Source: Hyphomicrobium sp. (lineage in GTDB: Bacteria > Pseudomonadota > Alphaproteobacteria > Rhizobiales > Hyphomicrobiaceae). Taken from it: a stretch of DNA of 42,099 bases. Numbering within the stretch: the stretch's first letter is position 1; each line of letters starts with the position of its first letter. Below are positions 25,673 to 33,268 of this stretch, in pieces. Location of the stretch: the NCBI GenBank assembly GCA_030148725.1, contig JASBSU010000018.1:1-42099 (forward strand), written 5' to 3'. Made by a program: the position numbers and the translations under genes. Under the pieces are notes generated by a model that was not told the DNA's origin, made no database searches, and worked only from the letters and a program-made list of their open reading frames with translations.

Positions 25673-26626
25673 TCAATATACGCCGCCGAGGCTCAGCATA
25701 AGATTATAGCGTGGTGTTCCAGGGGACGCACGCCGGTGCGAGCTAGCGGTCTTCTTGCTTGGGCGGGGTTTGGGCGCCGCGGCCGGCGCGGATGGCGGCA
25801 GGGCCGAATTCGCGCTGCTCGGGTCGTAAGCGGCGCTGGCCATACCCTGATCGCCTGACGGCTGGCTCCCTGGAATGAGAGGCTCGCGCGTCATCGGCGC
25901 GAAGTCTTTCGGACCGCCAATAGACATGCGGCCGGGCAACTGCTCGTTGGTCACGACGCTGGTTGGGACCGGCGTAAAGAGCCTGGTCGCCTGTTGGTTC
26001 TGCGCTTCTGCCGGTTTCCACGGGAGAACTTCAGGCGCTGCCGGCGCGGCTGCGACCGCCTCATCAGAAGCGCCACAGGAACGTCCGTTGTGCGACTTCA
26101 GGAGCGACAGCAGGAGGTAATCCGGGCTGTCGACTGGCAACGCTGAGTTCGAGCGCGTCGTAAACTGCCGCATCGCATCACGCGTGCTGTTATTCCAGGC
26201 GCCGTTGGCGCGACCCCAATAACAGCCGACCCGCTTCAGCTGCTGCTGGATGTCGACGACCAGCTTGTAACGACTGTCGGCGTCGGTCGGCTGCAGCGCG
26301 CCGGCAGCGGCAACGTTGGTCTGCCAGTCTGCGATGGGCTCGATTTTCGGCGCCGGCGAAGTTGCCTGAGGCTCAGCCGTCGGGGCTTTGGCAACCTGCA
26401 TGCGATGGTCGCCGTGCGCCAGTGAGACGCCGGGTGCAAAGCTTGCGAGGCGGGAGGATGCGTGCGCAGGAGCAGCCGCGGGCGCCTGCAGGGACGCCGC
26501 AAACCGCTGAGCGATGGCGCGCTTGGCCTCCTCGAGTGTCGTTCCGCGATCAACGGGGGCCGGGAGATAGACGAAAAGGCCGACGCCTATGCCGGCCAGA
26601 AGTACGAAGCCACCGAGGCTACGCAT
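25673..26626 (-). CDS. Membrane-anchored envelope protein with peptidoglycan-binding-like motif
   Basis: A 317-residue protein with an N-terminal transmembrane anchor (residues 4-22, LGGFVLLAGIGVGLFVYLP) and a long alanine/proline-rich extracytoplasmic tail. The only structured-looking part is about residues 120-185: YKLVVDIQQQLKRVGCYWGR, ANGAWNNSTRDAMRQFTTRS and LLSLLKSHNGRSCG, which follows the peptidoglycan-binding-domain (PG_binding_1) pattern with a Cys pair (CYWG and SC) that may form a disulfide. The C-terminus is basic and disordered (KKTASSHRRASPG). It probably binds cell wall in the periplasm. No closer family is recognised. It is convergent with cutA, 6 bases apart. Confidence 0.7.
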   Translation of the reverse strand: MRSLGGFVLLAGIGVGLFVYLPAPVDRGTTLEEAKRAIAQRFAASLQAPAAAPAHASSRLASFAPGVSLAHGDHRMQVAKAPTAEPQATSPAPKIEPIADWQTNVAAAGALQPTDADSRYKLVVDIQQQLKRVGCYWGRANGAWNNSTRDAMRQFTTRSNSALPVDSPDYLLLSLLKSHNGRSCGASDEAVAAAPAAPEVLPWKPAEAQNQQATRLFTPVPTSVVTNEQLPGRMSIGGPKDFAPMTREPLIPGSQPSGDQGMASAAYDPSSANSALPPSAPAAAPKPRPSKKTASSHRRASPGTPRYNLMLSLGGVY

Positions 26627-27361
26627 GACGTCAACTCCTCACACACATTCAGCCAGCACCGTTGCTCAGGGCCAGAACGCGCGACAGCCTTAATCAGTTC
26701 TCTCGCAGGAGCGTAAGTAGAAGCGGTGACAATGAGCTTAAGAGTCGCCCATAAAAACGTTTGTTGGCTATGCTCTTCCGTATCTTAACCAAAATAAGTC
26801 CGCCCACGTGCTTGTGCAACAGCAAGCTTTGCGCGGTTTGAGAATTTAATGTGCGGGTCCTGTGCACATCCTGGGGGCCCCTGGGGGTAAGTCTCGTTCA
26901 CTTTGTGGGCGCGCTGTGGACAGCGGAAAGGCAGCTTGCGGTGCGGAATTGAGGCCGGATTCCGGCGTCCAAAGCTACCCGGCTGATTCTCTTAACAATT
27001 CATTCCGAATCGCGTAGCAAAGGCAACTGAGGGGCAGTGCTGCGTCTGTAAACTTGTCGCCTCGCCCGATTGGGGAAAGTTGCGCACAGCGGAGTCCAGC
27101 GGCGACTTCCAGCCTGTGTACGACCCACGAGGGGAGGCTCCAGCTCTCGGCACTTTCATTGCGCGTGCGTTCGCCGGTTTGCCGGATGCCATTGGGGATG
27201 GCGCCGGAGCTCAACGGACCGAACGAGCCAGCACGCGGGACTGACGGTGCCCTTTATCGCGTAAGAGACGGAGAGTTTTTGCCCGGCCCTCGGCAAAGGC
27301 AAGTCAAGCGTCGGCAACGTAGAGCGTCGACAGCCGGCGATCATAATTCATGAGGGCAAAC
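26627..27361. other. Long intergenic stretch with no supportable gene
   Basis: About 735 bases between two divergent genes. It contains several short open frames on both strands, none with a protein-like composition, RBS and length together. Bases 26700-26860 are noticeably AT-richer than the surroundings and probably hold the promoter of the minus-strand envelope gene. A CCTGGGGGCCCCTGGGGG block near 26870 is the most obvious local symmetry. A short RNA gene cannot be excluded. Confidence 0.5.
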
Positions 27362-28624
27362 ATGAGACATGCTCTAGGCGTGTTGGGGGTTCTGGCGGCC
27401 GGCGTGCTACTCGCCGTTTCGGCTGCGATGAACTGGCGGTTTGGCGTCAGCCTCGGAAGGACCGAGTTCGACGGCCAGATCTACGGCGCAGCCAGCGCGG
27501 CTGCGGATTGCATGAAGGCGCTTGTGCCTTTCTTCTTCTTCGCCGCTTTAAGAAACAGAATGTGGTCGCAGGCAGCAGCCTCGGCCGTCGTCTGGGTTGT
27601 GGTCACGGCATACTCCCTGACCTCCGCCCTCGGTCACGCTGCACTGAACAGGCTCGATACAGCCGGTCAGCGCACCGCGACTTCGGAATCCTACAAGGAT
27701 CATCGCGCCGATCTGGCTCGGGCTCAGGAGCAATTGTCCTGGATCCCGCAGCACCGTCCTGCTCAGGCGGTTCAGTCGGACCTCGATGCCCAGAAGGACG
27801 ACAAGCAGTGGGCCAACACCGAGCAGTGCTCGAAGGTCACTGGTCCAAAATCGCGTGGCTTCTGCCAGAAGTATCACGCTCTGTCGGCCGAGCTCGCCTC
27901 TGCGCAACAAACCGTTGCGCTTGAAGCTCGCATCTCCGACATCAAGGCCAAGTTGGCCGTTTCTACCGCTAACCACGCTGTAACGAGTGAGGGCGATCCG
28001 CAGGCTGCGGTGCTCGCCAAGCTTGCTGCGTTGGTTATCCCGTCCGTCAAGGTCGAGGACGTGCAGACCGCACTTACGGTCTTTGTTGCACTGTTGCTCG
28101 AAGTTGGATCGGGCTTTGGTATGTATATCGCGTTCAGTCAGTGGCGCCTCTATGATCGCCACACGCCGACCGCACCTCAGATGATGGTTCCGGTCAGCAC
28201 CGCTGCGGCAGCGGTGGCGGCTCCCAAGGCCGTTGCGATAGCAAAGCCGCGTTCCGGCGCGAACGACAACAGGTCGGTAACCGAAACGAAGGTTCCGGCC
28301 GAAGCCAAGATCGTCGCATCGCCGGCTCCTCAGAGACTGATGGCTCCCGAGACAGACGTGGAGCGCTTCTACAAAGAGAGGATCGAAACTCAAGACGGAT
28401 CAAGCTTGACTGCAACTTCGCTGTACGAGGACTACTGTGCATGGTGTGAAGATCAGCAGAAAGAGCCGCTCGCATTGCCGACATTCGGTCGGGAGTTCGG
28501 TGAGCTCGGAGTCCAGAAGGCACGGATAGCAGGAAGGGTGCGGTATATCGGCATTGCGCTGAAGTCCGCAGACGGTCTTGAGGAGGATAAGAAGCCGCCG
28601 GTCTTCGCAGAGAAGGCCGCCTAG
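27362..28624 (+). CDS. Four-helix membrane protein with coiled coil and primase-type winged-helix C-terminus
   Basis: A 420-residue protein of unknown function. Visible parts in order: TM1 (residues 3-23), a loop with NWRFGVSLGRTEFDG, TM2 (51-64, with FFFFAAL), TM3 (70-92, VVWVVVTAYSLTSAL), a long helical region rich in K/E/Q (about 105-190, with ESYKDHRADLARAQEQL and QQTVALEARISDIKAKL) that looks like a coiled coil, TM4 (224-248, TVFVALLLEVGSGFGMYI), a disordered A/P/K linker, and a C-terminal domain (332-391) reading SLYEDYCAWCEDQQKEPLAL followed by FGREFGEL and GRVRYIGIAL. That domain resembles the winged helix at the end of P4/D5 phage primases (LYxAYxxWCxxxGxxPLS, then FGxxL and GxxYxGIxL). 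The second ATG (27362) has GAGGG upstream and is preferred to 27350. Two terminators follow it. Confidence 0.8.
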   Translation: MRHALGVLGVLAAGVLLAVSAAMNWRFGVSLGRTEFDGQIYGAASAAADCMKALVPFFFFAALRNRMWSQAAASAVVWVVVTAYSLTSALGHAALNRLDTAGQRTATSESYKDHRADLARAQEQLSWIPQHRPAQAVQSDLDAQKDDKQWANTEQCSKVTGPKSRGFCQKYHALSAELASAQQTVALEARISDIKAKLAVSTANHAVTSEGDPQAAVLAKLAALVIPSVKVEDVQTALTVFVALLLEVGSGFGMYIAFSQWRLYDRHTPTAPQMMVPVSTAAAAVAAPKAVAIAKPRSGANDNRSVTETKVPAEAKIVASPAPQRLMAPETDVERFYKERIETQDGSSLTATSLYEDYCAWCEDQQKEPLALPTFGREFGELGVQKARIAGRVRYIGIALKSADGLEEDKKPPVFAEKAA

Positions 28625-28640
28625 AGATAGGCTTCAAACG

Positions 28641-28662
28641 AAAGGCCGCGGAAGCGGCCTTT
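28641..28662 (+). terminator. Hairpin downstream of the membrane/winged-helix gene
   Basis: Perfect 9-base arms AAAGGCCGC and GCGGCCTTT with GGAA loop, 17 bases after the stop codon. The tail CTCATTTCC is only partly T-rich. It is probably a terminator stem, backed up by a second one 18 bases further on. Confidence 0.7.
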
Positions 28663-28680
28663 CTCATTTCCGGGATGTTG

Positions 28681-28711
28681 AAAGGCGGCCGTCAGGCCGC
28701 CTTTTCTTTTT
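28681..28711 (+). terminator. Second, stronger intrinsic terminator, overlapping the 3' end of ptrB
   Basis: Perfect 10-base arms AAAGGCGGCC (28681-28690) and GGCCGCCTTT (28695-28704) around GTCA, followed on the plus strand by TCTTTTT. It therefore terminates plus-strand transcripts and includes the last codons and stop of the minus-strand oligopeptidase gene (codons for KEKAA). On the minus strand the same stem lacks a T-run. Confidence 0.8.
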
Positions 28712-32116: not shown

Positions 32117-32301
32117 GATGGGCGGTCCCTGGAAAGGAAGCCGCAACTTTCTCATCGCGCAAAGACGCGGGGACTAATCGAGGGCGCTTCGAGTTATCCC
32201 CCTCGTTCACCCGAGGGCTAGTTTGGTCACCGGCAAGTAGCGCTTGATGCCTATGATGCTTGCGTCAGTTGAACGCTCGGCTTGTACGGATTTCCCGCCA
32301 G

Positions 32302-32685
32302 ATGCTGCATCCAAATGTTTCCCACCACTGCGGTTCGGATCGGTCGCGGAGGACGCGTTCATGCGTCAGTCGCGAGGCTATCGAGCATGCGGTGGCACAC
32401 GTGTTCGGGATCGCGGGACGCGATCTGCGCCGTACGACGCGAGGGCGGGCGAAAGTCGCGCTGGCGCGGCAGGTGGCAATGTACCTGGCGCATGTGGGAT
32501 GCGGGCTTTCGCTGACCGAGACGGGGCGGCTTTTCGAGCGTGATCGGACGACCGTCGCGCACGCGTGCGGGGTGATCGAGGACCGGCGCGATGATCCGCT
32601 GTTCGACCGCGTTCTGGATCTTCTGGAGTGGGCGGTGCCGGCGCTGACGGTGCGCCCGCTGTTGAATTCGCATCAGGTGAGCTGA
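32302..32685 (+). CDS. DnaA C-terminal-like helix-turn-helix protein
   Basis: About 127 residues, matching domain IV of the replication initiator DnaA without the AAA+ part: VSREAIEHAVAHVFGIAGRD, RGRAKVALARQVAMYLAHVG, then LSLTETGRLFERDRTTVAHA, where the last phrase is the DnaA signature (GRxFGRDHTTVxHA). DnaA itself uses it to bind DnaA boxes (TTATCCACA-like). Stand-alone versions are common in Hyphomicrobiales. The start is uncertain: ATG 32302, TTG 32269 and TTG 32260 are all in frame and none has a clear RBS. A DUF6456 gene follows 4 bases downstream, the usual gene pair. It may compete with DnaA at boxes or regulate nearby genes; this is inference. Confidence 0.85.
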   Translation: MLHPNVSHHCGSDRSRRTRSCVSREAIEHAVAHVFGIAGRDLRRTTRGRAKVALARQVAMYLAHVGCGLSLTETGRLFERDRTTVAHACGVIEDRRDDPLFDRVLDLLEWAVPALTVRPLLNSHQVS

Positions 32686-32689
32686 AACA

Positions 32690-33268
32690 ATGAAGCAGCA
32701 ACACTACGAAGCGCCCGCCGGGCGCTCGCGGGCGCACGCGCGCAGCGAAGAAAGCCCGATCGCGTGGCTGCGCCGCCGCAAGGATCGTAACGGCGAGCCA
32801 ATGATTTCGCAGGCGCAGTTCGATGCCGGCGAGCGCCTCTCAGCCGACTTCTGGTTCGGGCAGATGACGCCGCGCACGACCACGAATTGGTCTGCCGTTT
32901 CGACAACCCCGCGCGGCCGACGTTATGGCGCTTCGCAGCGGTCGCACGCCGATATGACGGATAACGCCGTTGCTGCCGCAGAACGCGTGCGTCGCGCACT
33001 TGATGCCGTCGGGCCCGAGCTATGCGGCGTGCTGATCGACGTGTGCTGCCACATGCGAGGCCTCGAAGAGGCGGAGCGATCCGCAGGCTGGCCGCAACGA
33101 TCGGGTAAGATCGTCCTGCAACTCGCGCTGACGCGGCTCGCTCGGCACTATGGGCTAGAGCGAAGCGGTACGCCGTCGGCGGCTGCCGGGATGCGGCACT
33201 GGGGCGGCGAAGGCTATCGCCCGGTGTTCGAGGTTTCTGAGGACGAGACGCCGGATTCTAGCGCCTAA
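32690..33268 (+). CDS. DUF6456 domain protein
   Basis: A 192-residue protein whose C-terminal two-thirds fits DUF6456: the IAWLRRRKDRNGEPMISQAQ opening, FDAGERLSADFWFGQMTPRT, the GPELCGVLIDVCCHMRGLEEAE helix and SGKIVLQLALTRLARHYGL. The N-terminal 25 residues are basic and probably disordered. DUF6456 resembles a small DNA-binding regulator; no function is established that I know. It follows the DnaA-like gene by 4 bases, so the two are co-transcribed and possibly act together. Its 3' end overlaps the convergent sufE-like gene by 4 bases. Confidence 0.85.
   Translation: MKQQHYEAPAGRSRAHARSEESPIAWLRRRKDRNGEPMISQAQFDAGERLSADFWFGQMTPRTTTNWSAVSTTPRGRRYGASQRSHADMTDNAVAAAERVRRALDAVGPELCGVLIDVCCHMRGLEEAERSAGWPQRSGKIVLQLALTRLARHYGLERSGTPSAAAGMRHWGGEGYRPVFEVSEDETPDSSA

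Follow-up and report, generated by a model that had tools for sequence, protein, structure and literature searches.

A four-helix membrane protein with a C-terminal primase-type winged helix, a core gene of the Hyphomicrobiaceae and a candidate DNA-membrane tether

Membrane-bound winged-helix proteins are already known as a kind: in ToxR and CadC the winged helix is N-terminal, of OmpR type, and accompanied by one transmembrane segment. RFX proteins are soluble eukaryotic transcription factors, and VirC1/ParA systems bring the relaxosome or plasmid to its place. Partial likenesses to all of these, and to the P4/D5 primase-helicases, are found in a protein, here termed Q, encoded in a 42,099-nucleotide stretch of DNA from Hyphomicrobium sp. 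(assembly GCA_030148725.1, contig JASBSU010000018.1; this whole stretch is referred to as the window). With the P4/D5 primase-helicases (Pox_D5, PF03288; PHROG 1156, 1829 and 6088) Q has in common a C-terminal profile and fold over residues ~330-404, but it lacks their primase and helicase parts and carries the winged helix fused to four transmembrane helices and a helical loop. The RFX DNA-binding domains (1dp7, 8zjr) are the best solved folds for Q, at target TM-scores of 0.70-0.73, although its isolated C-terminal domain scores below the curated Pfam RFX cutoff (20.5 versus 27 bits). As in ToxR and CadC, a cytoplasmic winged helix, a transmembrane anchor and a periplasmic part are predicted in Q, whose winged helix is however C-terminal, of D5/RFX type, and combined with four transmembrane segments. 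Mobile paralogues of Q often lie beside a ParA-type gene, one of them with a VirC1 match, whereas core copies have no ParA neighbour and no ParB domain. The RNA leader upstream of Q recalls Caulobacter CcnA, a cell-cycle noncoding RNA lying at the origin and acting on ctrA and gcrA, which is tied to CtrA-type control in alphaproteobacteria, with 5' UTR involvement (PMC8959179); the Q leader differs in running into the RBS of Q. Among the matches listed from open-licence papers, none describes a protein or leader of this sort. Our preferred reading, held tentatively and at a little less than even confidence, is that Q is a membrane-anchored DNA tether that would fix a DNA site to the inner membrane.

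The gene and its product are laid out as follows:

27352..27357, plus strand: RBS of Q, GAGGGC, reading GAGGGC or GGGGGC across a 28-row alignment
27362..28624, plus strand: Q, membrane-winged-helix protein of 420 residues, ATG start, orthologues with the same start
27374..27430, plus strand: TM1, residues 5-23 (hydropathy; model helix 2-30)
27494..27550, plus strand: TM2, residues 45-63 (hydropathy; model helix 35-64)
27575..27631, plus strand: TM3, residues 72-90 (hydropathy; model helix 68-127)
27638..28057, plus strand: helical TM3-TM4 loop, residues 93-232, predicted periplasmic (model, charge, alignment)
28079..28135, plus strand: TM4, residues 240-258 (hydropathy, alignment; model helix 231-259)
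28172..28339, plus strand: disordered linker, residues 271-326 (AlphaFold pLDDT <50)
28355..28561, plus strand: C-terminal D5/P4/RFX-type winged helix, residues 332-400 (profiles, AlphaFold, fold matches)
28643..28705, plus strand: two terminator-like hairpins 3' of Q, the first found by eye, the second by scan

The start at 27362 was preferred over a longer one at 27350 because orthologues open with MRHALG and the GAGGGC RBS lies just 5' of the ATG. Of the tandem terminators that an earlier note, made from the sequence alone, had placed behind the gene, the second (28680-28705) was reported by the terminator scan and also ends the convergent peptidase gene; the first (~28643-28659) was seen in the sequence by eye and is absent from the scan's list, and the four terminator-like matches of the scan in this region are within shuffle expectation (mean 2.4, s.d. 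1.9).

The winged-helix identity of the C-terminal domain was confirmed by two routes, profile and fold. Pox_D5 (PF03288) scored 19.8 bits against whole Q, short of the 21.4-bit cutoff, and 23.0 bits against the isolated domain, while PHROG primase profiles matched residues 330-404 with E-values of 5e-9 for whole Q and 3e-10 for the domain alone. The three strongest of these matches fall near the profile end; a fourth, weak one (phrog_864) lies in the profile middle. Primase and superfamily 3 helicase domains were not found in Q with Pfam, PHROG or NCBIfam, only residues ~330-404 being aligned, which agrees with the earlier view of a primase-type winged helix without the catalytic and helicase parts. 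AlphaFold modelled residues 331-400 with a pLDDT of 92-95. A sequence search of solved structures returned RFX1 (1dp7, E 0.007), and the same RFX1-DNA complex was the top Foldseek match (E 6e-4, target TM 0.73) and the sole PDB match at E ≤0.001, followed by the RFX5 complex 8zjr (E 2.5e-3, target TM 0.70). Fold matches in BFVD include viral primase and helicase proteins. Among the core copies (46 rows) Y355, Y358, W361 and F375 are invariant, and R392, R394 and Y395 nearly so. Q appears to be an undescribed inner-membrane protein equipped with a type of DNA-binding domain that is elsewhere found in the primases of phages and viruses. Several uncharacterised or unnamed phage proteins in BFVD, among them A0A6J5PKE2, A0A6J5RZR7 and A0A248SJG0, gave weak fold matches over most of Q, with query TM-scores of 0.29-0.41 and rmsd of 16-37; these are too weak for homology and possibly represent a phage version of the architecture.

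The membrane part belongs to no Pfam or NCBIfam family above its cutoff. The AlphaFold model, built from 46 sequences, is of moderate quality (mean pLDDT 75.7, pTM 0.44), and the packing of the membrane part in the whole-chain model is not to be trusted. Its helices nevertheless agree with hydropathy on four transmembrane segments in the 420-residue protein, and long helices between TM3 and TM4 reach residue 205; the four segments and a long helical region had been described before from the sequence. Two further hydropathy peaks are doubtful as transmembrane segments: 213-231 coincides with a 13-residue helix (213-225) in the model, and 275-293 is Ala-rich and disordered. Mean counts of K+R and D+E over 46 orthologues were 1.0 and 0 for the N-terminal four residues, 1.7 and 2.0 for the TM1-TM2 loop, 2.1 and 0 for the TM2-TM3 loop, 18.2 and 16.2 (near neutral) for the TM3-TM4 loop, and 2.7 and 1.5 after TM4. 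By the positive-inside rule, with a modest contrast, both ends of Q are predicted to be cytoplasmic and the TM3-TM4 loop periplasmic; the domain that matches primase winged helices is left on the cytoplasmic side, where the earlier note had put it. All 46 orthologues have Cys156 and Cys168 in this loop, and a periplasmic disulfide between them would be the natural reading. In TM4, E247, G249 and G253 are invariant in the 46-row alignment. A wider set of 28 sequences that includes paralogues retains six columns at ≥90%: R97, C156, C168, P213, E247 and G249.

Q is a core gene, vertically kept in its family. It is present in 33 of 35 sampled same-family relatives, or 34 of 36 with its own genome, at E 2e-115 or better, a few of the 34 copies being listed as two aligned pieces. 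It is missing from G024 (73% complete) and from G008 (78% complete), which has only a C-terminal piece, at a contig end. Matches occur in 42 of 60 genomes, own included, and order-wide in 48 of 297; six of the 48 match by the winged helix alone (G498, G505, G522, G616, G674 and G681, E 8.5e-4 to 2.9e-6), the remainder belonging to the own family and twelve further families. Class-wide, 12 of 385 genomes match, own included, and the listed matches of the others cover the winged-helix end, except in G429, whose match falls on a short stretch within the membrane part; at most five candidates were scored per genome, and distant relatives of the membrane part may be missed. The genome collection yielded 119 candidate stretches; 88 of them proved to be relatives, the best 80 of which were kept. 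The nearest named relatives are Hyphomicrobium, at up to 91% identity.

A recurring gene order surrounds these copies: NAD kinase, CutA, a divergent peptidoglycan-binding-like gene, Q, prolyl oligopeptidase and MucR. Under stricter neighbour clustering of 79 loci, many of them cut by contig ends, the divergent gene was counted in 55, NAD kinase in 41, the peptidase in 33, CutA in 24 and MucR in 14. The divergent neighbour is, in the window:

25673..26626, minus strand: protein with an N-terminal hydrophobic segment (seen by eye) and a peptidoglycan-binding-like region (neighbour clustering, Pfam)

It is kept in the distant relatives L100, L101 and L103. Six of ten members matched PG_binding_1 or PG_binding_2 at E ≤0.01; the match exceeds the curated cutoff in three (L055, L100, L103) and stays below it in the window copy.

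The earlier note had suggested a mobile or island-borne cargo gene and had named an anti-phage component among the possible roles of a DNA-membrane linker. That Q is island or prophage cargo, for instance a defence or superinfection-exclusion protein, is now highly improbable. Mobile elements do carry paralogues with this membrane part, and the phage proteins of unknown function mentioned above weakly fold-match most of Q, but this is a core gene with conserved neighbours, and its synteny and near-universal presence in the family contradict such an origin. No homologue of Q was found among 72,556 plasmid records at E 1e-5, and 50,697 phage records gave only three weak matches (E 0.02-0.04), all to primase/helicase genes and confined to the C-terminal part of Q. 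With the L115 paralogue as query, relatives of the membrane part were likewise not found in plasmids or phages, nor with the L129 paralogue in plasmids, and a scan of viral contigs with A1 confirmed 0 of 29 pattern matches. A defence role was rejected, no PADLOC family matching Q at E ≤0.1; two of six paralogues gave weak matches to long helical proteins (JetC E 0.0025, DndD E 0.025). On whether homologues lie in islands the answer is divided, orthologues having conserved chromosomal neighbours and distant paralogues lying on mobile elements.

The 735-bp gap 5' of Q, described earlier as noncoding DNA isolating the gene, is real, but it is conserved rather than empty and holds a promoter-like element and a structured leader. 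The element is:

26984..27012, plus strand: promoter-like element TGATTC-TCTTAACA-N-CGAATCG, two GANTC sites 22 bp apart with TTAAC between

It lies ~380 bp upstream of Q, reads TGATTCTCTTAACA...CGAATCG in the window, and its pattern has no second copy in the genome. Among 77 upstream regions of full 700-bp length (L099 left out), the 50-bp bin at 351-400 bp ahead of the start codon has a GANTC count of 101, each other bin 2-27; for TTAAC on either strand the count is 56 there and 2-17 in the others. Within a 120-bp stretch from 79 upstream regions, one short stretch being left out, GANTC was found in 70, a pair 15-36 bp apart in 43 and TTAAC in 46; the pair test gave 0 on a control stretch inside the leader. 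Spacings of 22 bp (26 times) and 34-35 bp (10 times) recur. An extended GANTC motif, YGAKTCK, is given in one study, which reports no such extended preference among B. subvibrioides targets (PMC7987155). The window's TGATTCT fits this motif, as does CGAATCG on the other strand, and the TGATTCC of many relatives does not. From GANTC and TTAAC at a fixed place, we infer a candidate promoter of GcrA/CcrM or CtrA type. Because no sigma-70 consensus promoter was found between 26600 and 28760, the transcription start of Q was placed from conservation only.

The shared, conserved promoter region and the divergent wall-type partner favour regulation, and here a second reading of Q arises, possible but to be held with some doubt: Q would be a one-component membrane regulator resembling ToxR and CadC, whose periplasmic, disulfide-bearing loop senses the envelope, perhaps via the divergent peptidoglycan-binding-like protein, and whose cytoplasmic winged helix controls transcription, its targets including the shared intergenic region. 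The divergent pairing with a cell-wall-type protein in 55 of 79 loci, the invariant Cys pair and the strongly conserved intergenic element with its inverted GATTC/GAATC pair argue for it, and membrane-bound winged-helix regulators exist, as ToxR and CadC show (PMC5430869, PMC6733452, PMC8517210). Yet the winged helix of Q is not of OmpR/PhoB type, PF00486 giving no match at E ≤10 (Pfam), and the D5/P4 type is a feature of replication proteins, even if RFX is a transcription factor. Mobile paralogues beside ParA, relaxase and coupling proteins would moreover be unusual company for a sensor. A divergent partner sharing the intergenic region would suit a transcription regulator equally well and to that extent counts against the preferred DNA tether; the two roles are not mutually exclusive.

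Between the element and the RBS lies a leader of ~350 nt, conserved among close relatives (six sequences):

27013..27361, plus strand: conserved structured leader, presumed 5' UTR of Q (conservation; no Rfam match)
27084..27119, plus strand: leader hairpin 1, invariant AGCGG(C) loop (covariation: inner stem supported, outer stem weakly)
27175..27221, plus strand: leader hairpin 2, loop with GGGG, unpaired GCTCA (covariation, structure model)

We presume it to be the 5' UTR of Q rather than a separate RNA, because conservation runs into the RBS and no terminator was seen before it. None of 4227 Rfam models matched 26600-27500 at E ≤5. A 6S RNA was rejected, that of this genome having been found elsewhere, as was a coding region: of the 240 reading frames of 80 leaders, only 12 run without a stop from end to end.

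The AGCGGC of hairpin 1 was found 215-300 nt before the start in 62 of the 80 leaders, which come from 79 loci plus the window itself; 61 rows were aligned after L088, in which the wrong AGCGGC had been taken, was dropped. Pairing was seen in 61.6% of cells versus 49.6% in shuffles (0 of 500 as high), with 106 cells changed on both sides versus 45 and a covariation of 0.359 versus 0.161; the number of pairs with a change on both sides was not above shuffles (118 of 500), and the hairpin slid by two columns still paired in 52.9%. The outer helix as written pairs in 42% of cells and the inner in 77.9%; in a gap-free count of the inner six pairs, 278 of 366 cells were paired, where shuffles reached at most 227. 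Its arms in relatives often resemble, perhaps by chance, inverted DnaA-box-like words, e.g. TTTCCACA and TGTGCATAA in L043.

Hairpin 2 has the stronger support. Its GGGG anchor is present in 54 of 80 leaders, of which 47 were aligned; the rows dropped as mis-anchored or redundant (L054, L057, L059, L065, L076, L092, L107) raise the percentage paired, which in the 47 selected rows was 84.3% of cells versus 68.4% in shuffles. Changes on both sides occurred in 12 of 12 pairs (111 cells versus 37), and covariation was 0.569 versus 0.285 (0 of 500 as high; slid partners ≤0.177), in a shuffle test inflated by relatedness and on a structure derived from the same alignment. The model built on it found one copy in its own genome (150 of 1009 first-look candidates scored). 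Across 60 genomes, own included and many of them also suppliers of the model, 22 had a match at E ≤0.01 (23 matches under stricter filters), in 20 of these 106-152 bp upstream of that genome's Q by coordinates; in the other two the match lay at a contig end (G008) or two weak matches lay elsewhere (G033). Over 80 sources, the model was not seen upstream of paralogues and was missing from some core leaders.

Distant paralogues share the membrane part of Q at ~22-39% identity, one of them, with a weak winged helix, on contig 52 of its own genome (L112:6996-8324). A weak ParA-like match lies ~2.7 kb from this copy. Thirty-seven paralogue loci were fetched, a subset of the places found in the genome search that includes L123, an orthologue, and L164, which holds no family member by phmmer. 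In these loci phmmer detected ParA in 14, a coupling protein in 11, a relaxase in 9 and a resolvase in 5, versus 0 of 80 orthologue loci for each, in a comparison where the queries came from the same paralogue loci, some matches thus arising by construction, and where flank lengths differ. In nine loci (L121, L125, L127, L129, L130, L171, L174, L178, L181) ParA lies ~85-300 bp from the Q paralogue. Pfam confirmed these classes where loci were sampled: both L115 and L129 have a coupling protein and a relaxase, and L125, L127 and L129 a ParA/MipZ-type ATPase, VirC1 being also among the L127 matches. In L129 (1067-8806) coupling protein, relaxase-helicase, Q paralogue and ParA adjoin in one compact stretch.

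Judged with a profile built from orthologues, the winged helix gave a clear match (33-58 bits) in L113, L117, L121, L122 and L127, a weak one in L112, L129 and others, and no meaningful match in L118, L124, L125, L126, L128 and L131; the L128 paralogue has other helix-turn-helix matches, all below their cutoffs. Since the domain is absent or divergent in some mobile paralogues, the membrane part appears to be constant and the DNA-binding end variable. In a tree of the membrane part, core copies cluster when compared with shuffled labels, yet core and mobile copies are not cleanly separated (2 changes): L123, first placed with the mobile set, groups with orthologues, and L126, L128 and L130 join the core side on long branches, L127 and L130 being too divergent for sure placement.

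These paralogues give indirect backing to the idea of a DNA-membrane linker, as the earlier note had proposed. We favour the tether on indirect evidence, as both the company of the mobile paralogues and the domain type point to DNA handling. In such a mechanism, the winged helix would bind a specific DNA site and the flexible linker would let the bound site lie at the membrane. The TM3-TM4 loop would pair into a coiled coil, perhaps contacting the divergently encoded peptidoglycan-binding-like protein, and be braced by a Cys156/Cys168 disulfide in the periplasm. On mobile elements the tether would help ParA, or a relaxase and coupling protein, to place element DNA at the membrane; core Q would have been domesticated to act on the chromosome, its expression driven by a cell-cycle-type (GANTC/TTAAC) promoter and controlled through the structured leader. 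DNA binding, tethering and the function of the leader are all inferred.

Several observations weigh against the tether. Core-copy flanks hold no ParA, relaxase or coupling protein, and the mobile function may therefore not carry over. The hemE gene is a usual neighbour of oriC; in two closed genomes Q has no fixed place relative to it, at ~1.43 Mb in one (3.65 Mb) and ~0.68 Mb in the other (~4.0 Mb), and on these two an origin or terminus gene was rejected. And since some mobile paralogues have no detectable winged helix, DNA binding would not be the constant part of the family. Several mobile paralogues retain the membrane part although this domain has been lost, has diverged or has been replaced, a pattern that suits another reading that we consider unlikely: a membrane scaffold whose winged helix is a protein-protein module without DNA binding, its partner being a coupling protein or ParA in mobile elements and an unknown envelope complex for the core copy. 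Protein-binding winged helices are known, but core copies keep the domain strictly across 46 rows, and the solved structure nearest to it is a complex with DNA.

The DNA tether can be extended into a wider proposal, which we consider rather doubtful as a whole: Q would found a new class of membrane DNA anchor, combining a primase-type winged helix with a four-TM, disulfide-braced stalk. Mobile elements in this lineage would use it, together with ParA, relaxase or coupling protein, to position their DNA at the membrane, and Hyphomicrobiaceae and sister families would have domesticated it as a core chromosomal gene under a cell-cycle promoter and a previously unrecognised structured leader RNA. 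Hyphomicrobium buds at the tip of a hypha, and a chromosome has to pass along a narrow tube. For the attachment of DNA to the envelope in this genus Q is a direct and testable candidate, being a core, lineage-specific membrane protein with a DNA-binding domain of replication type and a promoter of cell-cycle type. The mobile paralogues offer a second system in which to study the same membrane part with ParA and transfer machinery, and the leader adds a new covarying RNA element.

Two further observations concern the surroundings of Q. In the window, 32260-33265 encodes a small protein comprising little beyond a DnaA C-terminal helix-turn-helix domain (PF08299), then a DUF6456 protein. At L044 (4870-6258, minus strand) and 13 other loci, a protein which by its N-terminus we take to be TadG-type and pilus-assembly-like recurs downstream of Q, 1.3-5.6 kb after the Q start.
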